Assembly: GCF_001541315.1 (NCBI RefSeq)
Contig: NZ_LMVK01000045.1
Location: 124,001-188,000 of the forward strand
Source of the DNA: Agrobacterium tumefaciens str. B6
GTDB lineage: Bacteria; Pseudomonadota; Alphaproteobacteria; Rhizobiales; Rhizobiaceae
Reading direction: 5' to 3'
DNA length: 64,000 nucleotides
Positions 3,742 to 38,633 of the stretch are shown here, in pieces. The notes under the pieces were generated by a model, which saw nothing but the letters and a program-made list of their open reading frames with translations, did no database searches and had not been told where the DNA came from. Position numbers and translations under genes: made by a program. How positions within the stretch are numbered: the first letter of the stretch is position 1; the number at the start of each line of letters is the position of its first letter.

Positions 3742-3987
3742 AACGACACTGATCCACAGCGTGGCATTTGTGTGCCCAAAAACACCACGAAAGCAACACC
3801 TCTTTTGCACGCGGTTTCCGTGACATATCGAGCGTTTACGTTATCGAACCCCGCAAGACGGGAAGGTGTGTTTTTGCGTGCACGGCTGGACCAGTGCGGA
3901 GTCACCTGACGGTTCCCCCGTCTCATCAGGGCCTGACCGACCCAACCCCGGCATCCCCGGGTATGTAACAGGGAGTTTTTAGAACGA

Positions 3988-4629: not shown

Positions 4630-5178
4630 TCACAGGATGCGGATCTTTGTGTCCTTGCGCAGATACGGTAGAATGCGGCGCATGTCTCGGGGGTGCAGGG
4701 CGACGCAGCCTGCGGTCGGCTCATATCCCGGTCGGATCAGATGCATGAAGATAGCCGAGCCGCGGTTGCGGCTTCTCGCGGTGATGTTCCAGTCAAGCAC
4801 CAGGCAGACGTCGTAGAGGCCGTCCTTGCGCATCATTTCTTCATGGCTCAGGGCGAAGGGCGCCTTGACCAGCCTGTTATAATTGGCGTTGCGTGGCTCG
4901 TCGCACCATAACATGGACTTCCGTGTTCGCTGCATCGGCAACGCCGTGGCGATGCCGGGAAGGCGGTCGCCGCGATAGAACCCGTGCAGGAGGCGCGTGG
5001 TGGAAATGGGGGATTTTCCGTCTCCCTCGCGTTTCAGTGCGGTGCGGCCATTACGACCGATCGCGGCTGGAAAAGTGAGGTGTCCGAGCTGGACGATGGC
5101 GCGGCTGATTTTCGAAGGGGCTGGCCGAACCATGAGCGTCGATGCGCGTTTACGTTGTCTTGCGGGCTGTATGCTCAT
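4630..5178 (-). CDS. L,D-transpeptidase (YkuD domain)
   Basis: About 182 residues. The YkuD catalytic signature is visible near the C-terminus: His in AIFMHLIRP, then TAGCVAL with the nucleophilic Cys, followed by the usual charged helix. Such enzymes form 3-3 peptidoglycan cross-links or anchor proteins to peptidoglycan in the periplasm. No clear signal peptide is visible: the N-terminus is basic (QPARQRKR) and not hydrophobic, as in the short cytoplasm-like rhizobial paralogues, so export is uncertain. The start may be ATG 5178 or GTG 5187; neither has a good Shine-Dalgarno. It converges with the carD-family gene. Confidence 0.8.
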   Translation of the reverse strand: MSIQPARQRKRASTLMVRPAPSKISRAIVQLGHLTFPAAIGRNGRTALKREGDGKSPISTTRLLHGFYRGDRLPGIATALPMQRTRKSMLWCDEPRNANYNRLVKAPFALSHEEMMRKDGLYDVCLVLDWNITARSRNRGSAIFMHLIRPGYEPTAGCVALHPRDMRRILPYLRKDTKIRIL

Positions 5179-8472: not shown

Positions 8473-11148
8473 TTACCGCTCGATGATGTCTGCTTCCGTT
8501 GGCACGAGGATTTCGCGTTTTCCGGCGTGATTGGCGGGACCGATGATGCCTTCCTGCTCCATGCGTTCGATCAGCGAGGCGGCGCGGTTGTAACCGATGC
8601 CGAGACGCCGTTGCACATAGGAGGTGGAGGCTTTGCCATCGCGAAGCACGACGGCCACGGCCTGATCGTAGGGGTCTTCGGAATCGGAGAAGTTGCCTGC
8701 GCCGGCCGGGCCGCCGGCATTGCCTTCCTCGTCGTCTTCCTCGGTAATCGCTTCCAGATATTCCGGCGACCCTTGTGTCTTCAGATAGGCGACGATTTCT
8801 TCGACTTCATTGTCGGAAACGAAGGGGCCGTGTACGCGCTGGATGCGCCCGCCGCCCGCCATATAGAGCATGTCACCCATGCCGAGCAGCTGTTCGGCGC
8901 CCTGTTCGCCAAGGATGGTACGGCTGTCGATCTTCGAGGTCACCTGGAAGGAGATGCGGGTTGGGAAGTTTGCCTTGATCGTGCCGGTGATGACATCGAC
9001 GGACGGACGCTGGGTGGCCATGATTACGTGGATGCCGGCGGCACGCGCCATCTGCGCCAGGCGCTGCACCGCGCCTTCGATGTCCTTGCCGGCAACCATC
9101 ATCAGGTCTGCCATCTCGTCGATGATGACGACGATATAAGGTAGTGGCTTCAGGTCGAATTCTTCCGTTTCGTAGATCGCCTCACCAGTCTGGCGGTCGA
9201 AGCCTGTCTGGACCGTGCGGGTGAGGATTTCACCCTTGTCGAGCGCCTGCTGCACGCGGCTGTTGAAGCCGTCAATGTTGCGCACGCCGATCTTCGACAT
9301 TTTCTTGTAGCGCTCTTCCATCTCGCGCACCGTCCACTTCAAAGCCACCACGGCCTTTTTGGGATCGGTAACGACCGGAGAAAGCAGATGCGGAATGCCG
9401 TCATAGATCGACAGTTCGAGCATTTTCGGATCGATCATGATCAGGCGGCACTGCTCCGGTGACATGCGGTAGAGCAGTGACAGGATCATGGTGTTGATGG
9501 CAACCGACTTGCCCGAGCCGGTGGTGCCGGCGACCAGCAGATGAGGCATCTTGGCAAGATCGGCGATGACGGGTTCACCGCCGATGGTCTTGCCGAGCGC
9601 CATGGCGAGCTTCGCCTTGCTGTTTTCGAAATCGCGGCTGCCGATCAGTTCGCGCAGGAACACGGTTTCGCGCGTCTGGTTCGGCAGTTCTATGCCGATG
9701 GCGTTGCGACCGGGAACGACGGCGACACGGGCGGCAATCGCGCTCATGGAGCGGGCGATGTCATCAGCAAGACCGATGACGCGCGAGGATTTGATGCCGG
9801 GCGCCGGTTCCAGTTCGTAAAGCGTGACGACCGGGCCGGGGCGGACATGGATGATTTCGCCCTTGACCCCGAAATCCTCGAGAACGCCTTCCAGAAGGCG
9901 GGCGTTCTGTTCCAGCACTTCCTCGCTCAGCATATTGTCGCGAACGACATTCTTCGGTTCTGCCAGAAGATGGACGGTTGGCAGCTGGAAACCGTCTGCG
10001 GCGATGAAGGAGGCCTGCGCCTCCCTTGCCACGCGCTCGCTGGGCTTCGGTCGTGCGGAAGGTGCTGTTATTCTGGGCTGTCCGCGTCCCGGCACCTGTC
10101 TGGCGGTGAATTTCTGGTCGGCCTCGTCGTCGGAGAGAATGCCGTCCGGCAGCCGGCGTTCGTCCGCGTCGAAGGGCGGTTCGTTATCCATGTCCTCGTC
10201 ATGACCGAGCGCGATGGATGGAGGTGACATCTGGCGACGCGATGCGGCGCGTTCTTCGAAAGACGGCTCTGCGCGCTGGTCGAGGCGGTTGATTGCGGTC
10301 TTGAGGCGAGAAGGTTCGTTCAGCGTGCCGAATTCATATTCGTTGAAGTCATAGGGATGTTCGAACTCATCGTGCAGGGACTTCGACTTCAGGCCGAACA
10401 GGCGGCGCAAGCGCGCCTGGGTGATGTACCAATAATGCGTAAGCGCGCCGAAGGCGAGCATATTGGTGAAGAAGCCTTCGCCGTCGTCTTCGTCATCCTC
10501 TTCGACTTCACGGGCTGCGCGGGCCTTGCTGGTGGTGACCGGAGCGGCTTCTTCCCGCTCCAGTTCATCGTCCAGGCCGCCCACAATACCGGCGGCAAAC
10601 AGCATCAGCCAGGCAGCCGGTGCCGCGAATATGACACCCAGTACCGTGGCGATCGTGCCGGTGGGGTAAGCGCCGATAAAAAGGGCGGGAAAACGCAGGA
10701 TCATGTCACCGATGACACCGCCGATGCCGTTCGGAAGCGGCCATGTGACGGGGGCAGGAAAACAGCCGAGCGAGGCGGCGCAGACAATGGCGCCAGCGAT
10801 CCAGGCCACGAGGCGGACGGGTATGCGGTGGAATTTACGATTGGCGATCAGCGCGATCGCCCAGGCGATGACCGGGAGAAGCGAGATGATTGCGGAAAGC
10901 CCGAGGAACTGCATCACGATATCGGCGAAAATCGCACCACCGTAACCCAGAAGATTGGTAGGCTGGTTTCCTGTCGCATAGGAGAGGCTCGGATCCGCCA
11001 CATTCCATGTGGCGAGTGCGGCAATGCCCAGCGCGATCGTGGCCAGCATAGCGAAACCGGCCAGAGCCATGATCTGACGCACGAAAAACGCCGTCAGCAC
11101 GAAGCGTGTGTGACGACCATCGAATGTCGGAGAATGCATTCTGCCCAT
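8473..11148 (-). CDS. ftsK: DNA translocase FtsK
   Basis: 891 residues from the ATG at 11148. It coordinates chromosome segregation with septum closure. There are four hydrophobic segments in the first ~190 residues, a charged linker, then the motor domain with Walker [13 protein letters not shown] and Walker [14 protein letters not shown]-terminal gamma winged helix ([15 protein letters not shown] to [11 protein letters not shown]) reads KOPS sites. Longer starts exist (TTG 11289, ATG 11256), but they would run through the amtB terminator and a CtrA-type box. I therefore prefer 11148, preceded by AGGGAC at short spacing. Confidence 0.93.
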
Positions 11149-28131: not shown

Positions 28132-29139
28132 TTACTGGCCGCGGATCTTCTTCAGGTCCGCCAGAACGGCGTCAACGACGTCGGCACCGATTTCAGCCTT
28201 GTGCTTTTCGTAGACGACCATCGACTTTTCGCGGATACGTGCCTGCTCTTCCGCAGACAGCGAGTTCACTTCAAGTCCTGCAGCCTTGATCTTTTCCAGC
28301 GACTTCTGGTTCAGTTCGCGGATGACCTTGCGCTCTTCGTCACGGCCGACGACTGCGCATTCGCGCAGGGCCGTCTGTTCTTCGGGCGTGTAGCTGTCGA
28401 AGATCGGCTTGGAGAAGAGGAAGAGGAACGGCGTGTAGGCGTGGTTCGTCTCGGTGATGTACTTCTGCACCTCGTAGAACTTGGAGGTGTCGATCGTCAC
28501 ATAGGGGTTTTCCTGTGCGTCGATCGCGTTGGTTTCAAGTGCCGAGAACACTTCACCGAAAGCCATCGGCGTTGCATTGGCGCCGAGGTTCTGGAAGGTG
28601 TCGAGGAAGATGTTGTTCTGCATCACTCGAACCTTCAGGCCGGAAAAGTCTTCCCACTTGTTCACGGCGTGCTTGGAGTTCGAGAGGTTGCGGAAACCGT
28701 TTTCCCAGTAGGCCAGGTTTACGAGGCCCTGGTCTTCCAGCTTCTTGTTCATCATGTCGCCGAAGGCGCCGTCCATCACGGCATCGGCTTCCTTGGCATT
28801 GGAAAACAGGAACGGCAGGTCGAAGACGCCGAGCGACGGGATCAGGCCGACGAGCGGTGACGAGGACGTAACAACCGCTTCCTGAACGCCGGAGCGAAGA
28901 GCCTGCGTCGCCTGAAGGTCACCGCCGAGAGCGCCGCCCCAGAATGCCGTCAGCTTCAGCTTGCCGCCCGACTTGTCGTCGAGGCAGGCCTGCATGGCCT
29001 TGATGCCGTTGCCGACCGGGTGGTCCTGGTTGATGCCGTTCGAAACGCGGATGTTGCGGCTGTTGAATTCAGCCATTGCCGGGGCTGCGGCGCCCACCGC
29101 GAAAGCGATGGCCGTGGTGGTCAGAAGAAGCTTTCTCAT
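28132..29139 (-). CDS. dctP: TRAP transporter substrate-binding protein (DctP family)
   Basis: 335 residues with a Sec signal peptide (MRKLLLTTTAIAFAV to AAPAMAE). Mature features of the DctP family: GGALGGDLQATQALRSGVQEAV, then LKVRVMQNNIFLDTFQNLGANATPMAF, where the Arg of the LKVR motif binds the substrate carboxylate, then EVFSALETNAIDAQENP. The ligand is therefore an organic or sugar acid; the neighbouring dehydratases suggest an aldonate. It is last in the leftward arm, 36 bp after dctM, with AAGGGAGG before the ATG. Confidence 0.9.
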   Translation of the reverse strand: MRKLLLTTTAIAFAVGAAAPAMAEFNSRNIRVSNGINQDHPVGNGIKAMQACLDDKSGGKLKLTAFWGGALGGDLQATQALRSGVQEAVVTSSSPLVGLIPSLGVFDLPFLFSNAKEADAVMDGAFGDMMNKKLEDQGLVNLAYWENGFRNLSNSKHAVNKWEDFSGLKVRVMQNNIFLDTFQNLGANATPMAFGEVFSALETNAIDAQENPYVTIDTSKFYEVQKYITETNHAYTPFLFLFSKPIFDSYTPEEQTALRECAVVGRDEERKVIRELNQKSLEKIKAAGLEVNSLSAEEQARIREKSMVVYEKHKAEIGADVVDAVLADLKKIRGQ

Positions 29140-29175
29140 AATATCCTCCCTTGGATTTTGGTTGAGAAGTGGCGA

Positions 29176-30453
29176 TTAACGAAGGTACTGCAGCGGAACC
29201 ATCACGATGTCCGGGAAAACCACGAGCAACGCCAGAACGATGGTTTCTGCAACGAGGAAAGGCCAGACACCGATCGTGACCTTGCCGAGCGGGATGCGTC
29301 CGACGCCTGAGACGACGTTCAGCACGACACCGACCGGCGGGGTAATCAGGCCGATGGCATTGTTGATGATGAAGAGGACGCCGAAATAGACCGGGTCGAT
29401 GCCTGCCTGCTTGACGATGGGCATCAGAACGGGCGTCAGGATCAGGATGGTCGGTGTAAGGTCGAGCGCGGTTCCCACGATGAAGACCAGCACCATCATG
29501 GCAACCATCAGAAGCATCGGACGATCGATCAGCGGTTCGATATAACCGGCGACCTCGTTTGGAATGTTCGCAGCCGTGATGAGCCATGCGGAGACGAGGG
29601 CTGCGCAGACAAGGAACATGATGATCGAGGTGCTCTTGGCGGCGCGCAGAAGAACGTGGAACAGATCCGCCGGCTTCAGTTCGCGGTAGATCACCATGCC
29701 GACGAAAAGAGCGTAGCCGGCAGCGACAACGGCGGCTTCCGTCGGCGTCATGATGCCTGCCTTGATGCCGCCCAGAATGATGACCGGCATGCCAAGCGCC
29801 CAGCCGGCGCGGACCGTGGCAACCAGACGTTCCTTGCCCGAGGTCTTGGGCAGCGGCTTGATGTTATCCTTTCGGACCACGATCAGCCAGGCAATGATCA
29901 GCGAAATGCCCATCAGAATGCCGGGTACGATACCGGCAAGGAAAAGCTGGGTGATCGAAACGTTGGCGGCGACGCCGAAGACGATGAAGGCCATGGAAGG
30001 CGGAATGACCGGGGCAATGATGCCGCCTGCAGCGATGAGGCCGCCGGAGCGCGGAATGTTGTAACCGGCTTTCGCCATCATCGGGATGAGGATTGCGGCA
30101 AGGGCTGCGGTGTCGGCAGCGGCCGAACCGGAGATGCTGGCCATAATGATGGCCGCGACAATCGCCACGATGCCGAGACCGCCCCTGATATGGCCCACAA
30201 GCGCAATCGCAAAGTCGATGATGCGGCGGGAAAGACCACCGGAGTTCATCAGTTCGCCAGCCAGAATGAAGAAGGGAATGGCGAGCAGCGTGAAGGTGTC
30301 CGCGCCCGAGATCATGTTCTGGGCGATGATCGCGGTGTTGAACATGCCCATGTACCACATGAGCACGACGCCACAGAACATCAGCGAGAAAGCGACGGGA
30401 ACGCCAATCGCCATGGCTCCGAGAAGAGAGCCGACAAAAACGAAAAGTGTCAT
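29176..30453 (-). CDS. dctM: TRAP transporter large permease (DctM family)
   Basis: 425 residues, about 12 hydrophobic segments. It shows the DctM hallmarks: GVPVAFSLMFCGVVLM at the first helix, LLAIPFFILAGELMNSGGLSRRI, and SGSAAADTAALAAILIPMM near helix 4. It forms the Na+-driven transport channel of the TRAP system with DctQ. The ATG at 30453 lies 4 bp after the dctQ stop with GGAG overlapping the end of dctQ, so the two are translationally coupled. The longer ORF to 30516 overlaps dctQ in another frame and is rejected. Confidence 0.94.
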   Translation of the reverse strand: MTLFVFVGSLLGAMAIGVPVAFSLMFCGVVLMWYMGMFNTAIIAQNMISGADTFTLLAIPFFILAGELMNSGGLSRRIIDFAIALVGHIRGGLGIVAIVAAIIMASISGSAAADTAALAAILIPMMAKAGYNIPRSGGLIAAGGIIAPVIPPSMAFIVFGVAANVSITQLFLAGIVPGILMGISLIIAWLIVVRKDNIKPLPKTSGKERLVATVRAGWALGMPVIILGGIKAGIMTPTEAAVVAAGYALFVGMVIYRELKPADLFHVLLRAAKSTSIIMFLVCAALVSAWLITAANIPNEVAGYIEPLIDRPMLLMVAMMVLVFIVGTALDLTPTILILTPVLMPIVKQAGIDPVYFGVLFIINNAIGLITPPVGVVLNVVSGVGRIPLGKVTIGVWPFLVAETIVLALLVVFPDIVMVPLQYLR

Positions 30454-30457
30454 GGTA

Positions 30458-30988
30458 TCAGCGCTCCGAAAGCTGTTCGATCGTGAGGTTCTCGCCGGCG
30501 AACTGGGCGATTTCATCCTCTGTCACGCGGCCCGTCACATAACGGTAGAGGCGTTCCAGAGCGATGATGAACATCAGGCCGCCGGTGAACATGCCGATGC
30601 CGTAGACCCAGATCATCGACAGCTTGGTGACTGGCGCATGCATGCTGGCGTTGATGGCAGACTGCTTCCATGTTCCCCAGAAGAAGATGGCGGAACAGCC
30701 CAGAATAATGATGTTCGACAAGACCATGCACACGACACGGGCGCGGCGCGACAGGAACATCACGAGAGTTTCGATGCCCATATGGCTGTTTTCACGGAAG
30801 GTCAGTACGGCGCCGATGAAGGTCAGCCATACGAAGAAGTATCGCGACAATTCTTCCGAGATATTTATGCCGGAATTCATCGTGTAACGCATGACAACGT
30901 TGACGAAGACCATGATCGACATGCCGGCGAGCAGCAGGACGAGAATGATTTCGAGAATCCGGTAAAAGAGATTGATGGTCTTTTGCAT
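30458..30988 (-). CDS. dctQ: TRAP transporter small permease (DctQ family)
   Basis: 176 residues with four hydrophobic segments. The family features are NVVMRYTMNSGINISEELSRYFFVWLTFIGA in the first third and AINASMHAPVTKLSMIWVYGIGMFTGG later. It is an essential small membrane partner of DctM. GGGAGGGGAAA before the ATG at 30988 fixes the start. It is preceded by two hairpins in the 116 bp gap after the FAH-family gene, which may set different expression levels for enzyme and transporter. Confidence 0.92.
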   Translation of the reverse strand: MQKTINLFYRILEIILVLLLAGMSIMVFVNVVMRYTMNSGINISEELSRYFFVWLTFIGAVLTFRENSHMGIETLVMFLSRRARVVCMVLSNIIILGCSAIFFWGTWKQSAINASMHAPVTKLSMIWVYGIGMFTGGLMFIIALERLYRYVTGRVTEDEIAQFAGENLTIEQLSER

Positions 30989-31010
30989 TTTCCCCTCCCG
31001 AAGAAATATC

Positions 31011-31048
31011 TGGAGCATTTTCGACGAAGGATCGCCCTCAATGCTCCA
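31011..31048. repeat. Intercistronic inverted repeat before dctQ
   Basis: TGGAGCATT (31011-31019) and AATGCTCCA (31040-31048), perfect 9-bp arms with a 20-base loop, inside the FAH-dctQ gap. It could stabilise the upstream mRNA or attenuate dctQ transcription. It may be part of the adjacent dispersed repeat. Confidence 0.5.
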
Positions 31049-31061
31049 CCTATGGGTTTTC

Positions 31062-31104
31062 GCAATTCTGGGCGCAAAACCGCGATGCAGTTTTGCTGGA
31101 TTGC
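31062..31104. repeat. Dispersed rhizobial-type palindromic repeat at the FAH-gene stop codon
   Basis: Imperfect palindrome with core GCAAAAC/GTTTTGC (31074-31080, 31090-31096) inside GCAATTC/GGATTGC arms, ending at CTAGAGC. It resembles, from memory, the common Rhizobiaceae intergenic element with CGCAAAACCGC and TTTTGCTGGAATTGCTCTAG. It touches the FAH-family stop codon. Confidence 0.5.
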
Positions 31105-32265
31105 CTAGAGCAGCCCGCGTTTCGCCAGGTTGCGCATGAGGGCCGCGGTGCCGAATGTCCATTCCGGGCATTCGTCTGTCGTCGTGACCCAGTTGATCAG
31201 CTTGCCGAGCTTGGGCGTGGAGATTTCGACACGGTCGCCCTTGGAGTGGGTGAAGCCGAGACCCGGGCCATGGCGGTCCTTTACCGGCGCGAACATCGTA
31301 CCAAGGAAAAAGACGGCGCCGTCAGGATACTGATGGTTGCGGTTCAAGAGCTGGGAAGCGAGGTTTTCCGGCGTGCGGCTGATCGCCTGCATTGCGCTTG
31401 CACCCGTCATGGTGAAGCCGTCCTCACCTTCGACCAGAAGCGATATCTGCGCCTTCTTCACGTCTTCGATGGTAAAGCGTCCATCAAACAGGCGGATGAA
31501 GGGACCGATTGCGCAGGATGCGTTGTTGTCTTTTGCCTTGCTGAGCAGGAGGGCGGAGCGGCCCTCGAAGTCACGCAGGTTGACGTCGTTGCCGAGCGTC
31601 GCGCCAACGATACGGCCGTCGGAGGCAATGGCCAGCACCACTTCCGGCTCCGGGTTGTTCCACTGCGACTTCGGGTGAACGCCGATCAGCGCGCCGCAGC
31701 CGACGGAGGCCATGGCCTGCGCCTTGGAGAATATCTCCGCATCCGGACCGATGCCAACTTCCAGATATTGCGACCACAGGCCCATTTCCTGCAGCAGTTT
31801 CTTCACTTCGGCTGCTTTTTCCGAACCGGCCTCAAGTCCCTTGAGATTGTCGCCGAGAACCGGCGCCAGCCGTCCGCGTATTTCCTGCGCGCGAAGTGGA
31901 TCGCCCTTGGCCTGCTCCTCGATCACGCGTTCCAGCATGCTGTCGGCGAAGGTCACGCCTGCAGCCTTGACGGCCTGAATATCGTTGGGGGCGAGAAGTT
32001 CACCAGCGGAGCCATCCAGAAAGGCCTCGAGCGCGCCAAGCGCCACGAATGTGCCGGTGTCTGCAAGCAGCTCCACCAGATCCGTCTTTTCCAGAAGTTC
32101 AGACATGGTCGGCGAAAGAGAGGTGAGGTCGTATAGCACGCCGCCCTTTAGCAGAACGGGGCAGGGGCCGCCTTCGCTTTTCGACCATACGCGGCCGACG
32201 AGCAGGGCGTTTTCAAAGTCTTCAGGCAAAATAGCGGTATCGTCGATGGACCTTGAGCCGGTCAT
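31105..32265 (-). CDS. FAH-family protein, 2-keto-3-deoxy-xylonate dehydratase (XylX)-like
   Basis: 386 residues. N-terminal ILPEDFENALLVGRVW and PVLLKGGVLYDLTSLSPTMSELL resemble, from memory, Caulobacter XylX. The C-terminal fumarylacetoacetate-hydrolase fold has the metal ligands in NNPEPEVVL and LGNDVNLRDFEGRSALLLSKAKD. XylX dehydrates 2-keto-3-deoxy-D-xylonate to 2-oxoglutarate semialdehyde. The XylD-like dehydratase in the divergent operon makes this the likely activity here, though a different sugar acid is possible. GGGGAGG before the ATG; a palindromic operator candidate lies 61 bp upstream. Confidence 0.8.
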   Translation of the reverse strand: MTGSRSIDDTAILPEDFENALLVGRVWSKSEGGPCPVLLKGGVLYDLTSLSPTMSELLEKTDLVELLADTGTFVALGALEAFLDGSAGELLAPNDIQAVKAAGVTFADSMLERVIEEQAKGDPLRAQEIRGRLAPVLGDNLKGLEAGSEKAAEVKKLLQEMGLWSQYLEVGIGPDAEIFSKAQAMASVGCGALIGVHPKSQWNNPEPEVVLAIASDGRIVGATLGNDVNLRDFEGRSALLLSKAKDNNASCAIGPFIRLFDGRFTIEDVKKAQISLLVEGEDGFTMTGASAMQAISRTPENLASQLLNRNHQYPDGAVFFLGTMFAPVKDRHGPGLGFTHSKGDRVEISTPKLGKLINWVTTTDECPEWTFGTAALMRNLAKRGLL

Positions 32266-32318
32266 ATATATCCTCCCCTTCAGCCCTCCGACAGCCGCCT
32301 CCTGCGGTCATATTGTCT

Positions 32319-32333
32319 GGATGTCTGACAACC
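32319..32333. promoter_or_regulatory. Candidate GntR operator, copy 2 (upstream of FAH-TRAP arm)
   Basis: GGATGTCTGACAACC, an odd palindrome centred at 32326 with one mismatched pair. It matches copy 1 at 34858-34872 in 12 of 15 positions and shares GGTTGTC-n-GA on the minus strand. It is centred 61 bp upstream of the FAH-family ATG, in the 206 bp gap after the gntR gene. Confidence 0.6.
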
Positions 32334-32471
32334 TAATCTCATTCTTCTTAGTATGACTTTTACAGCGAGTCTAGCGGCACCGCAGACAAAATTATCGTCT
32401 TTCGCCTCTGGATTGCCGGAAAGCAGCGAAACCTGTCCTATAGCTTTGCCGTTTAAGCTTCTGTTTGTGGC

Positions 32472-33188
32472 TCAGAAGATATCCAGTTCCAGATTGACCC
32501 GGCTTGCTGCCCCGAGCAGATGTTTGCGCATCGCATCCTTGGCCGCAGTCGCATCGGCGCGTTCGACGGCTTCGAAGATTGCCACATGTTCGGCGATCGT
32601 CACCTCGAGGATTTCCCCGAAAATAGCACGGGAGAAGGCGATGTTGATAGCCGAGCTGATGCGTTCTGCGATAAAGCCGAGAAACATCAGGAAATATTCG
32701 TTCTGCGTCGCTTCCGCCAGAATACGGTGAAAGTCGAGATCGGCCGCAACGCCCTCCGTCGACCAGTCGTCGGTCGTTCGCATCTTTTCCAGTGCCGCCG
32801 CCAGCCGCGCCAGCTGCTGCGGGTTGCGGTGGAGTGCTGCCAGACCCGCCGCCTCGATTTCCATCGGCATGCGAAGCTGGAAGAGGTCGCGGAAATTTTC
32901 CGGATCGTTCAGACGGGACCGCTCGATGCGAATGGACAGTCTCTGCCGGGGATCGGTGACGAAAGCGCCCACGCCTTGCCGTGTTTCGACAAAACCTTCG
33001 TTGCGCAATTGCGCGATCGCTTCACGGATGACCGAGCGGCTGACGCCGAAGGTTTTCGCTAGAACATGTTCCGTCGGCAGCCTGTCGCCCGGCCCGAGTT
33101 TCGAATCATTGATTTCGCGGGCGATCTCCGCGGCGATCCGGCCGGGCAGATGATCGTTGCGATGTATCTGACTGAACTCCAGCGTCAT
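32472..33188 (-). CDS. GntR-family regulator, FadR/FCD subfamily
   Basis: 238 residues. The winged helix at 15-80 reads IAAEIAREINDSKLGPGDRLPTEHVLAKTFGVSRSVIREAIAQLRNEGFVETRQGVGAFV. The FCD ligand domain follows, with metal-ligand candidates Asp and His in DLDFHRILAEAT and His in AEHVAIFEAV. FCD regulators bind small organic acids. GGGAG precedes the ATG. It sits inside the leftward arm between the oxidase and FAH genes, and two matching palindromes flank the cluster, so it is the probable pathway repressor responding to a sugar-acid intermediate. Confidence 0.92.
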   Translation of the reverse strand: MTLEFSQIHRNDHLPGRIAAEIAREINDSKLGPGDRLPTEHVLAKTFGVSRSVIREAIAQLRNEGFVETRQGVGAFVTDPRQRLSIRIERSRLNDPENFRDLFQLRMPMEIEAAGLAALHRNPQQLARLAAALEKMRTTDDWSTEGVAADLDFHRILAEATQNEYFLMFLGFIAERISSAINIAFSRAIFGEILEVTIAEHVAIFEAVERADATAAKDAMRKHLLGAASRVNLELDIF

Positions 33189-33307
33189 GATTGCTCCCGT
33201 TCCACAGAAACGATTGGTCCGTTTTTTCCCGCGGCAGGCGACTTCCTCCTTCGCCGTCAGCGGGGTTTTCAGAGGCGACGTATTCCGCCGCCTTTGCTGT
33301 TTCTCGA

Positions 33308-34753
33308 TTAGCTATCCGGTTGCAGGGTTATCTGGCAACCGGGATTCATCCGCAAATCGGGGTCAAAGGCATTTTTCAAACCCTTGATCATCCGGCGCTG
33401 CACATCAGATAGCCGGCTTTCGAAATCGGAGCGTTTCAGGCGGCCGATGCCGTGCTCGGCGCTGATGCTGCCGACGTAACGGTCAAGGACTTCGTTGACG
33501 AGGGTTTTCGATTTGTAGATGAAGGCTTCGCGCTCCTGCGGCGTTGCTCCGTTTGGCGGCAGCACGTTGAGATGGACGTTGCCGTCTCCGACATGGCCAT
33601 AGGAAACCGCCAGGCATTCCGGCAGTTTTTCCGCCAGTTCAGCCTCTGCTTCGGCCACGAACGCCGCAAGTTTTGACAGCGGCACGGAAATATCGGTGCG
33701 CATATGGCTGCCGCGCAGCGCCTGACCCTCGTTCATGCCCTCGCGGAAAAGCCACAGCGATTGCGCCTGTGCTCGCGAGGAGGCGATGACGCCGTCCAGT
33801 ACCAGACCGTCTTCCATGACGCCCTCGAGGAACCGTCCCATCAGGTCGGCAGTGTCTACTAGCCCCGAGCCGGAAATTTCCATCAGCACATAGGCCGGAT
33901 AATCTCCGGCGATCGGCATTTTAAGGTCAGGGATTGCTTCGATTGCGAGCGTGAAGGCGACGGGCGGCATGAATTCGAAGGCGGACATCAGGTCGCAGCA
34001 TTCGCGGCGGGCGCGGCGATAAAGCTTGATGGCGTCATCCAGCGAATTGAGGCCGAGCAGTGCCGTCTCGACATGTTCTGGATTGGGGTAGAGCTTTACG
34101 GACACGGCCGTGATGATGCCGAGTGTTCCTTCCGCGCCAATGAAAAGCTGCTTCAGGTCAATGCCACGATTGTCCTTACGCAGCGTCGACAGGCCATTCC
34201 AGATGGTGCCATCAGGCAATACCACTTCGAGACCGAGCACCAGTTCGCGGGTCATGCCGTAACGCAGAACGTTGATGCCGCCAGCATTGGTGGAGACGTT
34301 GCCGCCGATGCGGCAGCTGCCCTGCGCGCCGAGCGACAGCGGAAAGAACATTCCCTTGTCCTGAACCGCATCCTTGAATTCCGACAGAATGGAGCCGGCT
34401 TCAACGACAGCCGAAAAATCGTCGCTGTCTATGGTGCGGATGGCGTTCATGCGCTCGAGGCTCAGCACGATCTGACGCTTTGGCTCATCGGGAATGCCGC
34501 CGAGCACCAGCCCGGTATTGCCGCCCTGAGGGATGATGGCGAGACCGAGTTCGGCGCAGGCGCGAACCGTATCGGAGACTTCCTTGGTCGAACGGGGGCG
34601 GATGACGGCTACCGCCGAACTGGTGACGTCGCCATGCCAGTCGCGGCAATAGCGCAGCATGTCTTCCTGCGATGTCAGCAGCAACGCCTCGCCCAGCCTG
34701 TTCTTCAGCGAGAACCGCAATTCCTCGATATCGTGTTCGCTCACGATCGTCAT
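33308..34753 (-). CDS. FAD-binding oxidase of the D-2-hydroxyacid (GlcD/D2HGDH) type
   Basis: 481 residues. PCMH-type FAD domain: VIRPRSTKEVSDTVRACAELGLAIIPQGGNTGLV, then GSCRIGGNVSTNAGGINVLRYG. The C-terminal cap carries SYGHVGDGNVHLNV with the metal-binding His residues, and EHGIGRLKR. It oxidises a D-2-hydroxy acid (lactate, glycolate, 2-hydroxyglutarate or a sugar-acid analogue) and feeds electrons to the respiratory chain. The start at 34753 has AGAGGGTGGA upstream; MDREGG at 34771 is less likely. It begins the leftward arm, and an operator candidate lies 112 bp upstream. Confidence 0.88.
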   Translation of the reverse strand: MTIVSEHDIEELRFSLKNRLGEALLLTSQEDMLRYCRDWHGDVTSSAVAVIRPRSTKEVSDTVRACAELGLAIIPQGGNTGLVLGGIPDEPKRQIVLSLERMNAIRTIDSDDFSAVVEAGSILSEFKDAVQDKGMFFPLSLGAQGSCRIGGNVSTNAGGINVLRYGMTRELVLGLEVVLPDGTIWNGLSTLRKDNRGIDLKQLFIGAEGTLGIITAVSVKLYPNPEHVETALLGLNSLDDAIKLYRRARRECCDLMSAFEFMPPVAFTLAIEAIPDLKMPIAGDYPAYVLMEISGSGLVDTADLMGRFLEGVMEDGLVLDGVIASSRAQAQSLWLFREGMNEGQALRGSHMRTDISVPLSKLAAFVAEAEAELAEKLPECLAVSYGHVGDGNVHLNVLPPNGATPQEREAFIYKSKTLVNEVLDRYVGSISAEHGIGRLKRSDFESRLSDVQRRMIKGLKNAFDPDLRMNPGCQITLQPDS

Positions 34754-34855
34754 TCCACCCTCTCTGTCCAATCCGCCCTAAAATATCCGGGCAAAGGTCT
34801 TTCGCCCTTGCTTTTGCCGGTTTGTGAAAAAATACTATTTTCAATCAAACCATAT

Positions 34856-34874
34856 AAGGTTATCAGACAACCTT
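34856..34874. promoter_or_regulatory. Candidate GntR operator, copy 1 (divergent promoter region)
   Basis: AAGGTTATCAGACAACCTT, an odd palindrome centred at 34865 with a single mismatched pair. It lies between the divergent oxidase (112 bp) and denD-like (89 bp) start codons, so one site could control both arms. The core is shared with the copy at 32319-32333. Confidence 0.65.
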
Positions 34875-34953
34875 ACAAGCTAATTTATCGGTTCACGAGC
34901 CGATGATGTTTTTTCGGTCTCGGGAGAATGACCGGGCCAAAGAGGAGGAAGAT

Positions 34954-35940
34954 ATGCATATCGCAATCATCGGTGCTGCAGGCATGGTTGGCCGTAAGCT
35001 GACGCAGCGTCTCGTCAAGGATGGATCGCTTGGCGGCAAGTCGATTGACAGATTCACGCTTATCGACGTGTTTCAGCCTGAAGCGCCCGCCGGCTTCTCC
35101 GGTGCGGTTGATGCGCGCGCAGCCGATCTGTCCGCGCCGGGCGAAGCCGAAAAGCTGGTCGAAGCCCGCCCCGATGTGATCTTTCATCTTGCTGCCATCG
35201 TATCCGGTGAAGCCGAACTTGATTTCGACAAGGGCTACCGTATCAATCTCGATGGCACGCGTTATCTCTTCGACGCCATCCGCATTGCCAACGGCAAGGA
35301 CGGTTACAAGCCGCGCGTGGTCTTCACCTCGTCGATCGCCGTATTCGGTGCGCCGCTCCCCTATCCGATTCCGGATGAGTTCCACACCACGCCGCTGACC
35401 AGCTACGGCACGCAGAAAGCGATCTGCGAGCTGCTGCTCTCCGACTATAGTCGTCGCGGTTTCTTCGACGGTATCGGCATTCGCCTGCCGACGATCTGCA
35501 TTCGCCCCGGCAAGCCGAATGCGGCCGCTTCCGGCTTCTTCTCCAACATCCTGCGCGAGCCGCTGGTCGGCCAGGAAGCGGTTCTGCCGGTGCCGGAAAG
35601 CATTCGCCATTGGCACGCTTCGCCGCGTTCCGCTGTTGGTTTCCTTCTTCATGGCGCAACGATCGACGTGGAAAAGGTCGGTCCGCGCCGCAACCTGTCC
35701 ATGCCCGGCCTCAGCGCCACCGTTGGCGAACAGATCGAAGCGCTGCGCAAGGTTGCGGGCGAAAAGGCCGTTGCCCTCATTCGCCGCGAGCCGAATGAGA
35801 TGATCATGCGCATGTGCGAAGGCTGGGCGCCCGGTTTCGAAGCAAAGCGCGCCCGTGAACTTGGCTTTACGGCTGAAAGCTCCTTCGAAGAGATCATTCA
35901 GGTTCATATCGAGGACGAACTGGGAGGTTCACTGAAATGA
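34954..35940 (+). CDS. NAD-dependent epimerase/dehydrogenase, D-erythronate dehydrogenase (DenD)-like
   Basis: 328 residues, extended SDR fold: Rossmann motif IIGAAGMVGRKL at the N-terminus, FHLAAIVSGEAELDFDKGY, the SSIAVFG strand and catalytic YGTQK (Tyr-x-x-x-Lys). Among SDRs it looks most like DenD, which oxidises D-erythronate. The partners of the erythronate pathway (OtnK, OtnC, OtnI) are absent, so the real substrate may be a larger sugar acid. GAGGAGG before the ATG at 34954. Its stop overlaps the next start (ATGA), and it heads the rightward operon. Confidence 0.75.
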   Translation: MHIAIIGAAGMVGRKLTQRLVKDGSLGGKSIDRFTLIDVFQPEAPAGFSGAVDARAADLSAPGEAEKLVEARPDVIFHLAAIVSGEAELDFDKGYRINLDGTRYLFDAIRIANGKDGYKPRVVFTSSIAVFGAPLPYPIPDEFHTTPLTSYGTQKAICELLLSDYSRRGFFDGIGIRLPTICIRPGKPNAAASGFFSNILREPLVGQEAVLPVPESIRHWHASPRSAVGFLLHGATIDVEKVGPRRNLSMPGLSATVGEQIEALRKVAGEKAVALIRREPNEMIMRMCEGWAPGFEAKRARELGFTAESSFEEIIQVHIEDELGGSLK

Positions 35941-36839
35941 GTGTCGGCGGGGAGGAGAAGAAGCGGTCGGTTGCCTTTATCGGCACAGGCCTGATGGGCG
36001 GGCCGATGGCCCGGCGTCTGCTGGGCGCGGGCTTTTCGGTTGCGGTGTGGAACCGCAGCGTCGAAAAGGCTGAGGCGCTGGTTGCCGATGGCGCGGTTCT
36101 CGCGGCATCGCCGGCCGAAGCCGCCAGAGGTGCCGATATCGTCATCACCATGCTGAGCGACGGCAAAGCCGTGGGCGAGGTGCTGTTCGAGGCGGGTGTG
36201 GCCGAATCGCTGGAAAAAGGCGCTGTTGTCATCGACAGCAGCTCCATTGCGCCGCCTATTGCGCGCGAACACTCCTCCCGGCTACGGGAAATGGGTATTC
36301 ATCATGTCGATGCGCCGGTCTCCGGCGGTGTGCCGGGCGCAACGGCGGGTACGCTCGCGATCATGGCCGGTGGCGATGAGGCGCTGATCTCTGGTCTTTC
36401 GGATTTCTTCGCGCCGATGGGCAGGCTCACCTATGTCGGCCCCTCCGGTGCGGGCCAGCTTTGCAAACTCGCAAACCAGCAGATCGTCGCCATCACCATC
36501 GGCGCGGTTGCCGAGGCGATGATGCTTGTGGAAGCGGGCGGGGCATCCCGCGAAGGGTTCCGTAACGCCATACGTGGCGGTTTTGCCGAAAGCCGGATAT
36601 TGGAATTGCACGGCGAACGCATGGTGAAGCGCAATTTCGCGCCAGGCGGACCCTCCAAGTTCCAGCTCAAGGATCTGAACGGGGTGCTGGCGACGGCAAA
36701 GGATTTGTCCCTGACGTTGCCTTTGACCCAGCAGGTAACGCGGGAGTTCGATGATTTCGTCAGCGATGGTGGAGCCGATATCGACCATAGCGGTATCCTG
36801 CTTTACCTCGAAAAACTCAACAACCGGGAACAGGGCTGA
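35937..36839 (+). CDS. Beta-hydroxyacid dehydrogenase (HIBADH/GlxR family)
   Basis: 300 residues. Rossmann motif FIGTGLMGGPMARRLL is at 14-30, substrate-binding DAPVSGGVPGATAGTLAIM near 125, and catalytic Lys in CKLANQQ near 178. The family reduces or oxidises 3-hydroxy acids such as tartronate semialdehyde, 3-hydroxyisobutyrate or L-threonate, using NAD(P). The ATGA overlap with the DenD-like gene shows tight translational coupling. The substrate is unassigned; the cluster points to a C3-C5 hydroxy acid. Confidence 0.85.
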   Translation: MSVGGEEKKRSVAFIGTGLMGGPMARRLLGAGFSVAVWNRSVEKAEALVADGAVLAASPAEAARGADIVITMLSDGKAVGEVLFEAGVAESLEKGAVVIDSSSIAPPIAREHSSRLREMGIHHVDAPVSGGVPGATAGTLAIMAGGDEALISGLSDFFAPMGRLTYVGPSGAGQLCKLANQQIVAITIGAVAEAMMLVEAGGASREGFRNAIRGGFAESRILELHGERMVKRNFAPGGPSKFQLKDLNGVLATAKDLSLTLPLTQQVTREFDDFVSDGGADIDHSGILLYLEKLNNREQG

Positions 36840-36848
36840 GGCGGTCTC

Positions 36849-38633
36849 ATGAGCGACGACAAGACACCCGTGCGGCGGCTGCGATCCCAGGACTGGTTCG
36901 ACAACCCTGACCATCTCGACATGACGGCGCTCTATCTGGAGCGCTTCATGAATTATGGCGTGACGCCGGAAGAGCTGCGTTCCGGCAAGCCGGTCATCGG
37001 CATCGCGCAGAGCGGCAGCGACCTGACGCCCTGCAACCGCGTCCATGTCGAACTGGTCAAGCGGGTGCGCGATGGTATCCGTGATGCGGGCGGTATCCCC
37101 ATCGAGTTTCCGACCCATCCGATGTTCGAAAACTGCAAGCGACCGACAGCGGCGCTTGACCGCAATCTTGCCTATCTCAGCCTGGTGGAAGTGCTTTACG
37201 GTTATCCGCTCGATGGCGTCGTGTTGACCACGGGCTGCGACAAGACCACGCCTTCGGCGCTGATGGCGGCAAGCACGGTTGATATTCCGGCTATCGTCTT
37301 ATCCGGCGGGCCGATGCTCGACGGGTACCATGACGGCGATCTGGTTGGTTCCGGCACGGTCATCTGGCGCATGCGCCGCAAATATGGCGCCGGCGAAATC
37401 ACCCGCGAGGAATTCCTGCAGGCGGCGTTGGAATCCGCTCCGTCGGTTGGCCACTGCAACACCATGGGCACGGCCTCTACCATGAATGCCATTGCCGAAG
37501 CACTCGGCATGTCGCTGACCGGCTGCGGCGCAATCCCGGCCGCTTACCGCGAACGCGGCCAGATGGCCTATCGCACCGGCCGCCGCGCCGTCGAACTGGT
37601 TGTCGAGAATATCAAGCCCTCCGACATCATGACGCGCGAGGCGTTCCTGAACGCGATCCGCGTCAATTCGGCAATTGGCGGTTCCACCAATGCTCAGCCA
37701 CACCTGGCGGCCATGGCCAAACATGCGGGCGTTGAACTCCGTGAAGAGGACTGGCAGGTCCACGGCTACGACATTCCGCTGCTTGCCAATGTCCAGCCCG
37801 CCGGAAAATGGCTGGGTGAGAAATACCACCGCGCCGGCGGTACGCCCGCCATCATGTGGGAGCTTCTGCAAGCGGGCAAGCTCGAGGGAAGCTGTCCGAC
37901 CGTGACCGGCAAAACGGTGGCGGAAAATCTGGACGGGCGGGAATCGACCGACCGCGACGTGATCCTGCCTTACGATAAGCCGCTGAAGGAACGGGCCGGG
38001 TTCCTCGTCCTCAAGGGCAATCTGTTTGATTTCGCCATCATGAAGACGAGCGTTATCTCGGCGGAATTCCGGCAGCGTTATCTGAGCGAGCCGGGCCGCG
38101 AGGGCATTTTCGAGGGCAAATGTGTGGTGTTCGATGGTTCGGAAGACTATCACGCCCGCATCAATGATCCGTCCCTGGATATCGATGAGCGCACCATCCT
38201 CGTTATTCGCGGAGCGGGACCGCTCGGCGGGCCGGGTTCGGCCGAGGTCGTCAACATGCAGCCGCCGGATGCGCTGCTGAAAAGGGGCATTACCAGCCTG
38301 CCGACGATCGGCGACGGCCGGCAATCGGGAACGGCGGACAGCCCGTCGATCCTCAACGCCTCGCCGGAAAGTGCCGCAGGCGGCGGGCTGGCATGGCTCC
38401 GCACGGGCGATGTGATCCGCATCGACTTCAACAAAGGCGAGTGCAATGCGCTGGTGCCGGATGAGGAGCTTGCGGCCCGCAAGGCTGACGGCATTCCCGC
38501 TGTTCCCGCGGATGCGACGCCCTGGCAGCGCATTTATCGTCAGTCGGTGACCCAGCTTTCGGACGGCGCGGTTCTGGAAGGAGCTGCGGATTTCCGCCGG
38601 ATCGCCGAGAAGATGCCCCGGCACAATCATTGA
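36849..38633 (+). CDS. IlvD/Edd-family aldonate dehydratase, D-xylonate dehydratase (XylD)-like
   Basis: 594 residues. [2Fe-2S] ligands appear at Cys62 ([10 protein letters not shown]), Cys130 (TTGCDKTTP) and Cys203 ([10 protein letters not shown]), each offset by two from the positions I recall for Caulobacter XylD. The N-terminal [20 protein letters not shown] and C-terminal PRHNH are typical of that sugar-acid subgroup rather than IlvD. It dehydrates an aldonate to a 2-keto-3-deoxy acid. D-xylonate is the best guess; L-arabinonate or another pentonate is possible. It is third in the rightward operon, 9 bp after the previous stop, with a terminator following. Confidence 0.87.

Follow-up and report, generated by a model that had tools for sequence, protein, structure and literature searches.

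A 64,000-nucleotide stretch of the genome of Agrobacterium tumefaciens str. B6 (contig NZ_LMVK01000045.1, positions 124,001 to 188,000; hereafter the window) carries a predicted sugar-acid breakdown cluster that includes a gene for a GntR-type regulator (gntR, 32472-33188, minus strand), raising the question of which neighbouring genes this regulator controls and through which DNA sites. An oxidase gene with gntR downstream of it in the same direction forms the left arm, which diverges from a right arm beginning with denD; beyond gntR lie genes for an FAH-family protein and a TRAP transporter. A sequence-only reading had proposed that two copies of a GGTTGTC-n-GACAACC palindrome, one between the divergent arms and one upstream of the FAH-TRAP genes, are bound by this FCD-type GntR protein. 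Both palindromes are found exactly where it had placed them, copy 2 at 32319-32333 (GGATGTCTGACAACC) and copy 1 at 34858-34872 (GGTTATCAGACAACC), and direct reading of the letters confirms that they agree at 12 of 15 positions on the same strand (13 of 15 with one read on the other strand) and have one mispair each, A32321 against A32331 in copy 2 and A34862 against C34868 in copy 1. Palindromes of this type fit the odd-palindrome class NyGTM-N0-1-KACNy (PMC4494728).

That reading overlooked that the resemblance of the two copies extends past the palindrome: read on opposite strands (minus for copy 1, plus for copy 2), they agree at 18 of 23 positions (TTGTAAGGTTGTCTGATAACCTT and TTGTCTGGATGTCTGACAACCTA). 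The shared asymmetric element, TTGTnnGGwTGTCTGAyAACC, consists of the palindrome (half-sites B and C) and an extra TTGT half-site, A, placed 8 base pairs (bp) outside it. We call the two putative operators O1, or type 1 (34858-34878, minus strand, TTGTA-AGG TTGTC-T-GATAACC; A 34878-34874, B 34872-34866, C 34864-34858), and O2, or type 2 (32313-32333, plus strand, TTGTC-T-GGATGTC-T-GACAACC; A 32313-32317, B 32319-32325, C 32327-32333). In both, A and B form a direct repeat with an 8-bp step and B and C an inverted pair. The midpoint of A lies about 11 nucleotides (nt) from the palindrome centre, within the 7-12 nt at which a weaker extra half-site was described in 2015 beside GntR palindromes, on one or both sides, by Suvorova, Korostelev and Gelfand (PMC4494728). 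The gntR product combines an N-terminal GntR winged helix-turn-helix (HTH; PF00392, 67.2 bits against a cut-off of 27) with a C-terminal FCD domain (PF07729, 87.9 bits against 24.3), the domain composition of FCD (FadR/VanR-type) GntR regulators. From the comparisons presented below, we put the probability that O1 and O2 are operators of the protein encoded between them at roughly 0.88.

The first line of evidence is conservation. We compared the gntR regions of relatives, comprising 66 orthologue loci (the window included) from 64 genomes, with the locus pairs L049/L224 and L176/L225 each coming from a single genome; the distant homologues L054-L058 and L177-L207 and the duplicate of L227, L174, were kept outside this set. 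One alignment held 34 loci, without the near-duplicates L060, L063, L072 and L076, and the non-redundant sets were obtained by thinning the flanks to less than 75% identity. The type-1 site between the oxidase and denD genes is present in 65 of the 66 loci, the exception being L224, a moved FAH-TRAP operon from a genome that has its type-1 site at L049. The type-2 site of the FAH/TRAP genes is present in 63 of the 66; it is missing from L049, whose genome carries it at the moved operon (L224), from L176, whose genome carries it at dctQ (L225), and from L227, where it was not found at the locus and the TRAP genes elsewhere in that genome were not sought. Thus, moved genes account for three of the four exceptions (L224, L049 and L176). 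The sequence-only reading had staked its proposal on footprinting beside orthologous gntR genes, and there both sites hold. TTGT occupies half-site A in all 65 type-1 sites.

Moreover, the element and the regulator occur together. Among 394 sampled genomes of the family, an orthologue of the regulator, defined by at least 56% identity (a cut chosen once the gap from 49 to 56% had become apparent), is encoded by 33, the next homologue standing at 49%. The element TTGTNNGGNTGTCNGANAACN, searched with its last base freed, is found exactly in 34 of the 394, and its reversed control in none. It occurs in 33 of the 33 genomes with the orthologue and in one of the 361 without, leaving 360 with neither (Fisher p = 2.6e-47, uncorrected for relatedness); the single exception, G437, has the element inside an open reading frame (ORF). 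At one mismatch or fewer, 37 of the 39 genomes of the window's genus have the element, and in each of the two that do not (G002 and G020) the best homologue of the regulator reaches only E ~1e-30, with no close orthologue. Among 62 genomes outside the genus searched at the same tolerance, G054 has both orthologue and element. Five others without a close orthologue (G041, G083, G091, G096 and G097) each show a one-mismatch match, in G083 and G091 inside ORFs; as the reversed control hits 9 of the 62 genomes, these five are at chance level.

This pattern also bears on whether another FCD paralogue of the same genome could be the main binder, with the neighbouring gntR only incidental. Counting GntR itself, its own genome has at least 28 matches to this protein (45 candidates came up at first look, of which 28 were scored), and the TTGTCnGACAA core is also used by the FCD regulator AlkR (PMC12042122). 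Yet the element follows this particular orthologue in the proportions just given and its core base covaries with a residue of this protein (see below), making it very unlikely that a paralogue is the main binder.

Genes that have moved provide a further test of the association. In L051, L171 and L175 the FAH gene is found past the denD operon and on the opposite strand, with a type-2 element just upstream in the same relative orientation; in L049 and L051 no type-2 site is found just downstream of gntR, the FAH gene does not adjoin gntR, and the site stands upstream of the moved FAH gene instead. G033 has its FAH-TRAP operon on another contig (L224), where a separate element lies no more than 90 bp from the aligned FAH start; this element is the extra one-mismatch match seen in that genome. 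In G407, denD and dctQ lie about 190 kb from gntR with an element upstream of each (L225), and a third element at gntR-FAH. In every moved FAH/TRAP or denD operon examined a site is thus found just upstream, which argues for control in trans; very probably, these genes form a trans-acting regulon of the 32472-33188 protein. L225 additionally encodes a second GntR homologue (10339-10980; 31% identity, 70.5 bits) between the ilvD and TRAP genes of G407.

The palindrome by itself carries little of this signal. In the window, the 15-mer has three matches at three mismatches or fewer against 2.15 expected, and in the whole genome (5.65 Mb) it occurs at 22 places at two mismatches or fewer as against 33 for its reversed control. 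At one mismatch there are three places, two of them the O1 and O2 palindromes. The expectation of the sequence-only reading that the motif would be rare and confined to its regulon therefore fails for the 15-mer, which we rejected as a genome-wide marker. Of the 19 places outside the window, 13 were checked and 11 of these fall within ORFs of 100 amino acids (aa) or more, a crude test, as ORFs on the other strand cover both real sites too. The 21-mer with the extra half-site, searched as TTGTNNGGNTGTCNGANAACC at three mismatches or fewer in the same genome, has two exact matches (O1 and O2), none at one mismatch, two at two and 38 at three, compared with 29 matches in all for its reversed controls. 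It is the 21-mer and not the 15-mer that is confined to the regulon. That the 15-mer does not outnumber its controls favours the notion that O1 and O2 are chance palindromes, whereas both sites, the O1 mispair included, persist in loci whose flanks have diverged below 75% identity, and sites of this kind are present at moved genes; we regard chance as extremely improbable. The evidence against it is thus the conservation and the co-occurrence with the regulator rather than any count of palindromes.

A third, weaker palindrome match, missed by the sequence-only reading, lies at 33326-33340 (GGTTATCTGGCAACC, no strand assigned) in the 3' end of the oxidase gene. It recurs at two mismatches or fewer in 10 of 62 loci, all 10 genomes belonging to the window's genus, and we rejected it as an operator on account of its position within coding sequence and this narrow distribution; it is probably a chance match.

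The protein itself supplies another line of evidence. The recognition helix has a conserved Arg51, and the position directly behind it, residue 52, is Ser in 60 of 60 orthologues; the core of their sites is TTGTC. We further examined 31 distant homologues (37-49% identity), 29 of which gave a candidate core by an automated rule that leaves the covarying base free. The 26 of these with Asn52 have TTGTA in 24 cases, TTGTT in one and TTGTC in one, the latter (L183) being tied with a TTGTA match; the three with another residue all have TTGTC. By alignment with FadR, residue 52 would correspond to HTH position 39. The covariation then appears to be of the kind published for FadR-type regulators, in which an Asn at HTH position 39 favours A/T beside the centre (PMC4494728).

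The sister FCD homologues of L177-L203, many of them beside related oxidases, have upstream of the oxidase or gntR a core that is mostly TTGTAGGAYRA or TTGTATGATAA instead of TTGTCnGAYAA, which goes with Asn52. In four loci (L080, L081, L083 and L085) the HTH half of the regulator is 96-99% identical to that of the window and the FCD half only 64-66%, with both operators unchanged. These represent a natural domain swap in which gntR had its FCD part replaced together with a short piece of 3' flank (compared with window 32387-32985); among the compared loci the nearest other FCD half is that of L086, 91-92% identical to those of L080, L081 and L085.

How the sites might act is suggested by their positions relative to three putative promoters, which we place by conservation and fixed spacing. 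The denD promoter (34838-34866, plus strand) would have a -35 box TTTTCA (34838-34843), a 17-bp spacer and a -10 box TATCAG (34861-34866) lying inside half-site C; TGAAA, the complement in the -35 region, keeps its offset in 57 of 65 loci, is shifted by one base in one and is not found in seven. The mispaired A34862 is the second base of this -10 box. In a class picked with A at the mispair from a search allowing A or G, it is A in 65 of 66 loci, and a repaired mispair is seen in no locus. Such constancy is not explained by a pure palindrome; the best reading of the mispair in copy 1 is that it belongs to the putative denD -10 box. The oxidase-gntR promoter (34851-34879, minus strand) would pair CTTGTA (34879-34874) with TATATG (34856-34851) across 17 bp, with O1 occupying the spacer and half-site A extending over the -35 box, in columns conserved in 33 non-redundant loci. 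The FAH/TRAP promoter (32346-32374, minus strand) would pair CTAGAC (32374-32369) with CTAAGA (32351-32346), again across 17 bp; a CTRGAC-like box, 17 bp and YTANNN precede the site in 55 of 63 loci, counted without a shuffled control, and O2 falls just downstream of the likely start. Transcription would begin near 34873 in the case of denD and at about 32339 in that of FAH. A plus-strand promoter-like pair within O2 (32325-32354) was set aside, its spacing differing between clades as judged by eye. In 58 loci gntR starts 33-133 bp past the oxidase stop codon (less than 70 bp in 36), and this short gap in the same direction points to gntR being probably co-transcribed with the oxidase gene and autoregulated through O1.

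We infer the following mode of action. A GntR dimer would sit on the odd palindrome of half-sites B and C, with a further subunit or a second dimer probably touching the outer half-site A. O1 would lie across the putative core promoters of both arms, oxidase-gntR to the left and denD-dehydrogenase-dehydratase to the right, and O2, from its place just beyond the putative FAH-TRAP promoter, would block that operon. Without inducer, uptake, both enzyme arms and, via the oxidase-gntR unit, gntR itself would be repressed; a sugar acid or keto acid of the pathway, held in the FCD domain, would bring about release. The protein might instead activate one or both arms: conservation does not reveal which way control runs, and the three putative promoters are weak by consensus. 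Against this, both sites are placed where they would obstruct polymerase rather than recruit it, O1 on the spacer and -10 elements of putative promoters and O2 downstream of another, and published accounts give AlkR (PMC12042122), NanR (PMC8012715) and Atu1419 (PMC7797058) as repressors, so that activation seems improbable.

A more serious question concerns half-site A. These could be operators of the same GntR of which the B-C palindrome alone is bound, the TTGT at A being a -35 box or mere context. In O1, A coincides with a possible -35 box CTTGTA, 17 bp from TATATG, and some distant homologue sites (L177, L182 and L188) have TTGYNN followed by TATGAT at -35-like spacing. In O2, however, A points against the FAH gene, whose putative promoter lies elsewhere; and in the non-redundant sets the letters at offset -6 from the core are TTGT in 38 of 38 type-1 and 32 of 36 type-2 sites (89%; the four misses include L172, a row anchored on a wrong match), as opposed to at most 8% for TTGT and at most 11% for ACAA at any other offset, core half-sites aside. 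Binding of the palindrome alone thus strikes us as possible, though doubtful. Equally tentative is a hybrid operator, in which the FadR-like inverted pair B-C and the NanR-like 8-bp direct repeat A-B would seat two dimers cooperatively on overlapping faces, the odd A of O1 being kept for the reason that half-sites double as the denD -10 and oxidase -35 boxes.

Returning to O1 and O2 as three-part operators of the GntR protein, several observations weigh against this reading. The conservation of half-site A in O1 has a second explanation, as it overlaps a possible -35 box; in 4 of the 63 type-2 sites (L050, L052, L053 and L170) A lies one base nearer the core; and TTGT, TTGC or TTAT at A is seen in only 14 of the 29 distant homologues, so that it is not universal. 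Most distant homologues have no element at three mismatches or fewer. None of the three putative promoters reached the threshold of a consensus promoter scan. The search patterns were built from the two window sites, whose exact matches are thus expected, and the weight rests on other genomes; these genomes are related, and the counts taken from them are not independent. In the four type-2 sites named above, the nearer A and half-site C together make up a long inverted repeat, of which GTTGTCGGATGTCCGACAAC in L050 is an example.

Comparison with described systems places the kind of control as ordinary, the core being a textbook FCD motif, and the conservation as strong. FadR-subfamily operators are described as odd palindromes built of TKGT/ACMA boxes, their GT and AC separated by 3 nt, and as sites in divergons; O1 and O2 share these features with them, as well as the extra half-site and the link between an Asn at HTH position 39 and A/T beside the centre, and differ in that the extra half-site comes close to the core in its conservation, is one-sided and is present at two sites of one regulon (PMC4494728). 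Purified AlkR of Pseudomonas aeruginosa, an FCD regulator (GntR/VanR), protects ATTGTCAGACAAT; its footprinted core lies over -10 regions and it is an FCD dimer acting as repressor, as proposed for the present GntR, with two extra weak sites reported, whereas AlkR serves an n-alkane pathway, responds to an acyl-CoA inducer and has a perfectly symmetric main site (PMC12042122). Escherichia coli NanR binds repeats in one orientation with three cooperative dimers, one domain of a dimer resting on a non-consensus half (PMC8012715), the repeats being the 8-mer TGGTATAW (PMC4494728). It resembles the present system in being GntR-type, in an 8-bp step (for NanR deduced by us) such as that from A to B, and in a position downstream of the polymerase site such as that proposed for O2 (PMC8012715). 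Unlike O1 and O2, with their inverted pair B-C, it uses three direct repeats of other letters without a palindrome, and its cooperativity needs a 32-residue N-terminal extension (PMC8012715), whereas here the HTH starts at about residue 14 and residue 17 aligns with NanR residue 35. With the inverted pair and an HTH from residue 14, O1 and O2 fall outside the NanR-type direct-repeat operators, and the window GntR scores 108.5 bits with the NanR model, below its cut-off of 260. Atu1419 of Agrobacterium fabrum is an FCD repressor from the same genus, with several palindromes per regulon, one of them a degenerate site inside a gene, and it loops DNA as a tetramer; its palindrome is a different one (ATGTATACAT) and its targets are hydroxycinnamate genes (PMC7797058). 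The YtrASa and HutC operators also contain more than two half-sites, and each YtrASa submotif contributed to binding, but these proteins belong to other subfamilies (YtrA and HutC) with other motifs (PMC6746942, PMC12977541).

In searches of the open-access literature we recognised no description of this regulon. What is new here is the specific regulon, a third half-site of unusual constancy across both operator types, a reason why the mispair is kept, and the natural domain swap. For the sugar-acid cluster this provides a sharply defined and testable regulon of a regulator with a restricted distribution in the sampled family (33 of 394 genomes), and for DNA reading by FCD proteins a natural series of three-part sites, of a switch between Ser52/TTGTC and Asn52/TTGTA, and of a swapped ligand half with the DNA-reading half and operators kept.

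The genes around the sites are as follows. The right arm comprises denD (34954-35940, plus strand; 365.2 bits with the curated D-erythronate dehydrogenase model NF043036, cut-off 325), a dehydrogenase of the 3-hydroxyisobutyrate/2-hydroxy-3-oxopropionate/threonate type (35937-36839, plus strand; Pfam above cut-off, no NCBIfam equivalog cut-off reached) and an IlvD/Edd-type dehydratase (36849-38633, plus strand; subfamily model NF009560, 1040.1 bits, cut-off 684). The left arm starts with a GlcD-like FAD-linked oxidase (33308-34771, minus strand; PF01565 and PF02913, with a GlcD model match below its curated cut-off), whose ORF is listed from a TTG and may have its true start internally. Downstream of O2 the first gene encodes the FAH-family protein (31105-32265, minus strand; PF01557, 32.5 bits, cut-off 23.9, without an NCBIfam match), followed in the same direction by the TRAP transporter genes dctQ, dctM and dctP (28132-31171, minus strand), recognised by curated-model and Pfam matches. 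By its curated-model match DenD makes the D-erythronate pathway a candidate, and the cluster is predicted to serve sugar-acid breakdown.

Agrobacterium tumefaciens CNPSo 675 has a GntR with 100% identity to the window protein. The AlphaFold model of the window GntR (mean pLDDT 85.6) has the HTH beginning near residue 14 and an FCD part of six long helices and one short helix of low confidence. D150, H154, H201 and H223, which we take to be the metal-binding set of the FCD domain, are invariant across 21 aligned sequences. An Rfam scan returned no match. L008 contains a perfect GTTTGTCTGACAAAC palindrome at 1501-1515 (G000:C7:76501) with no covering ORF of at least 100 aa; homologues of the window-cluster proteins were not found within 1.5 kb of it, and it is possibly an operator of another FCD regulator. 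In L057, from another family, TTATCnGGTTGTCnGACAA elements (3833-3853 and 4737-4757) stand on both sides of a gene for a GntR protein with 41% identity.

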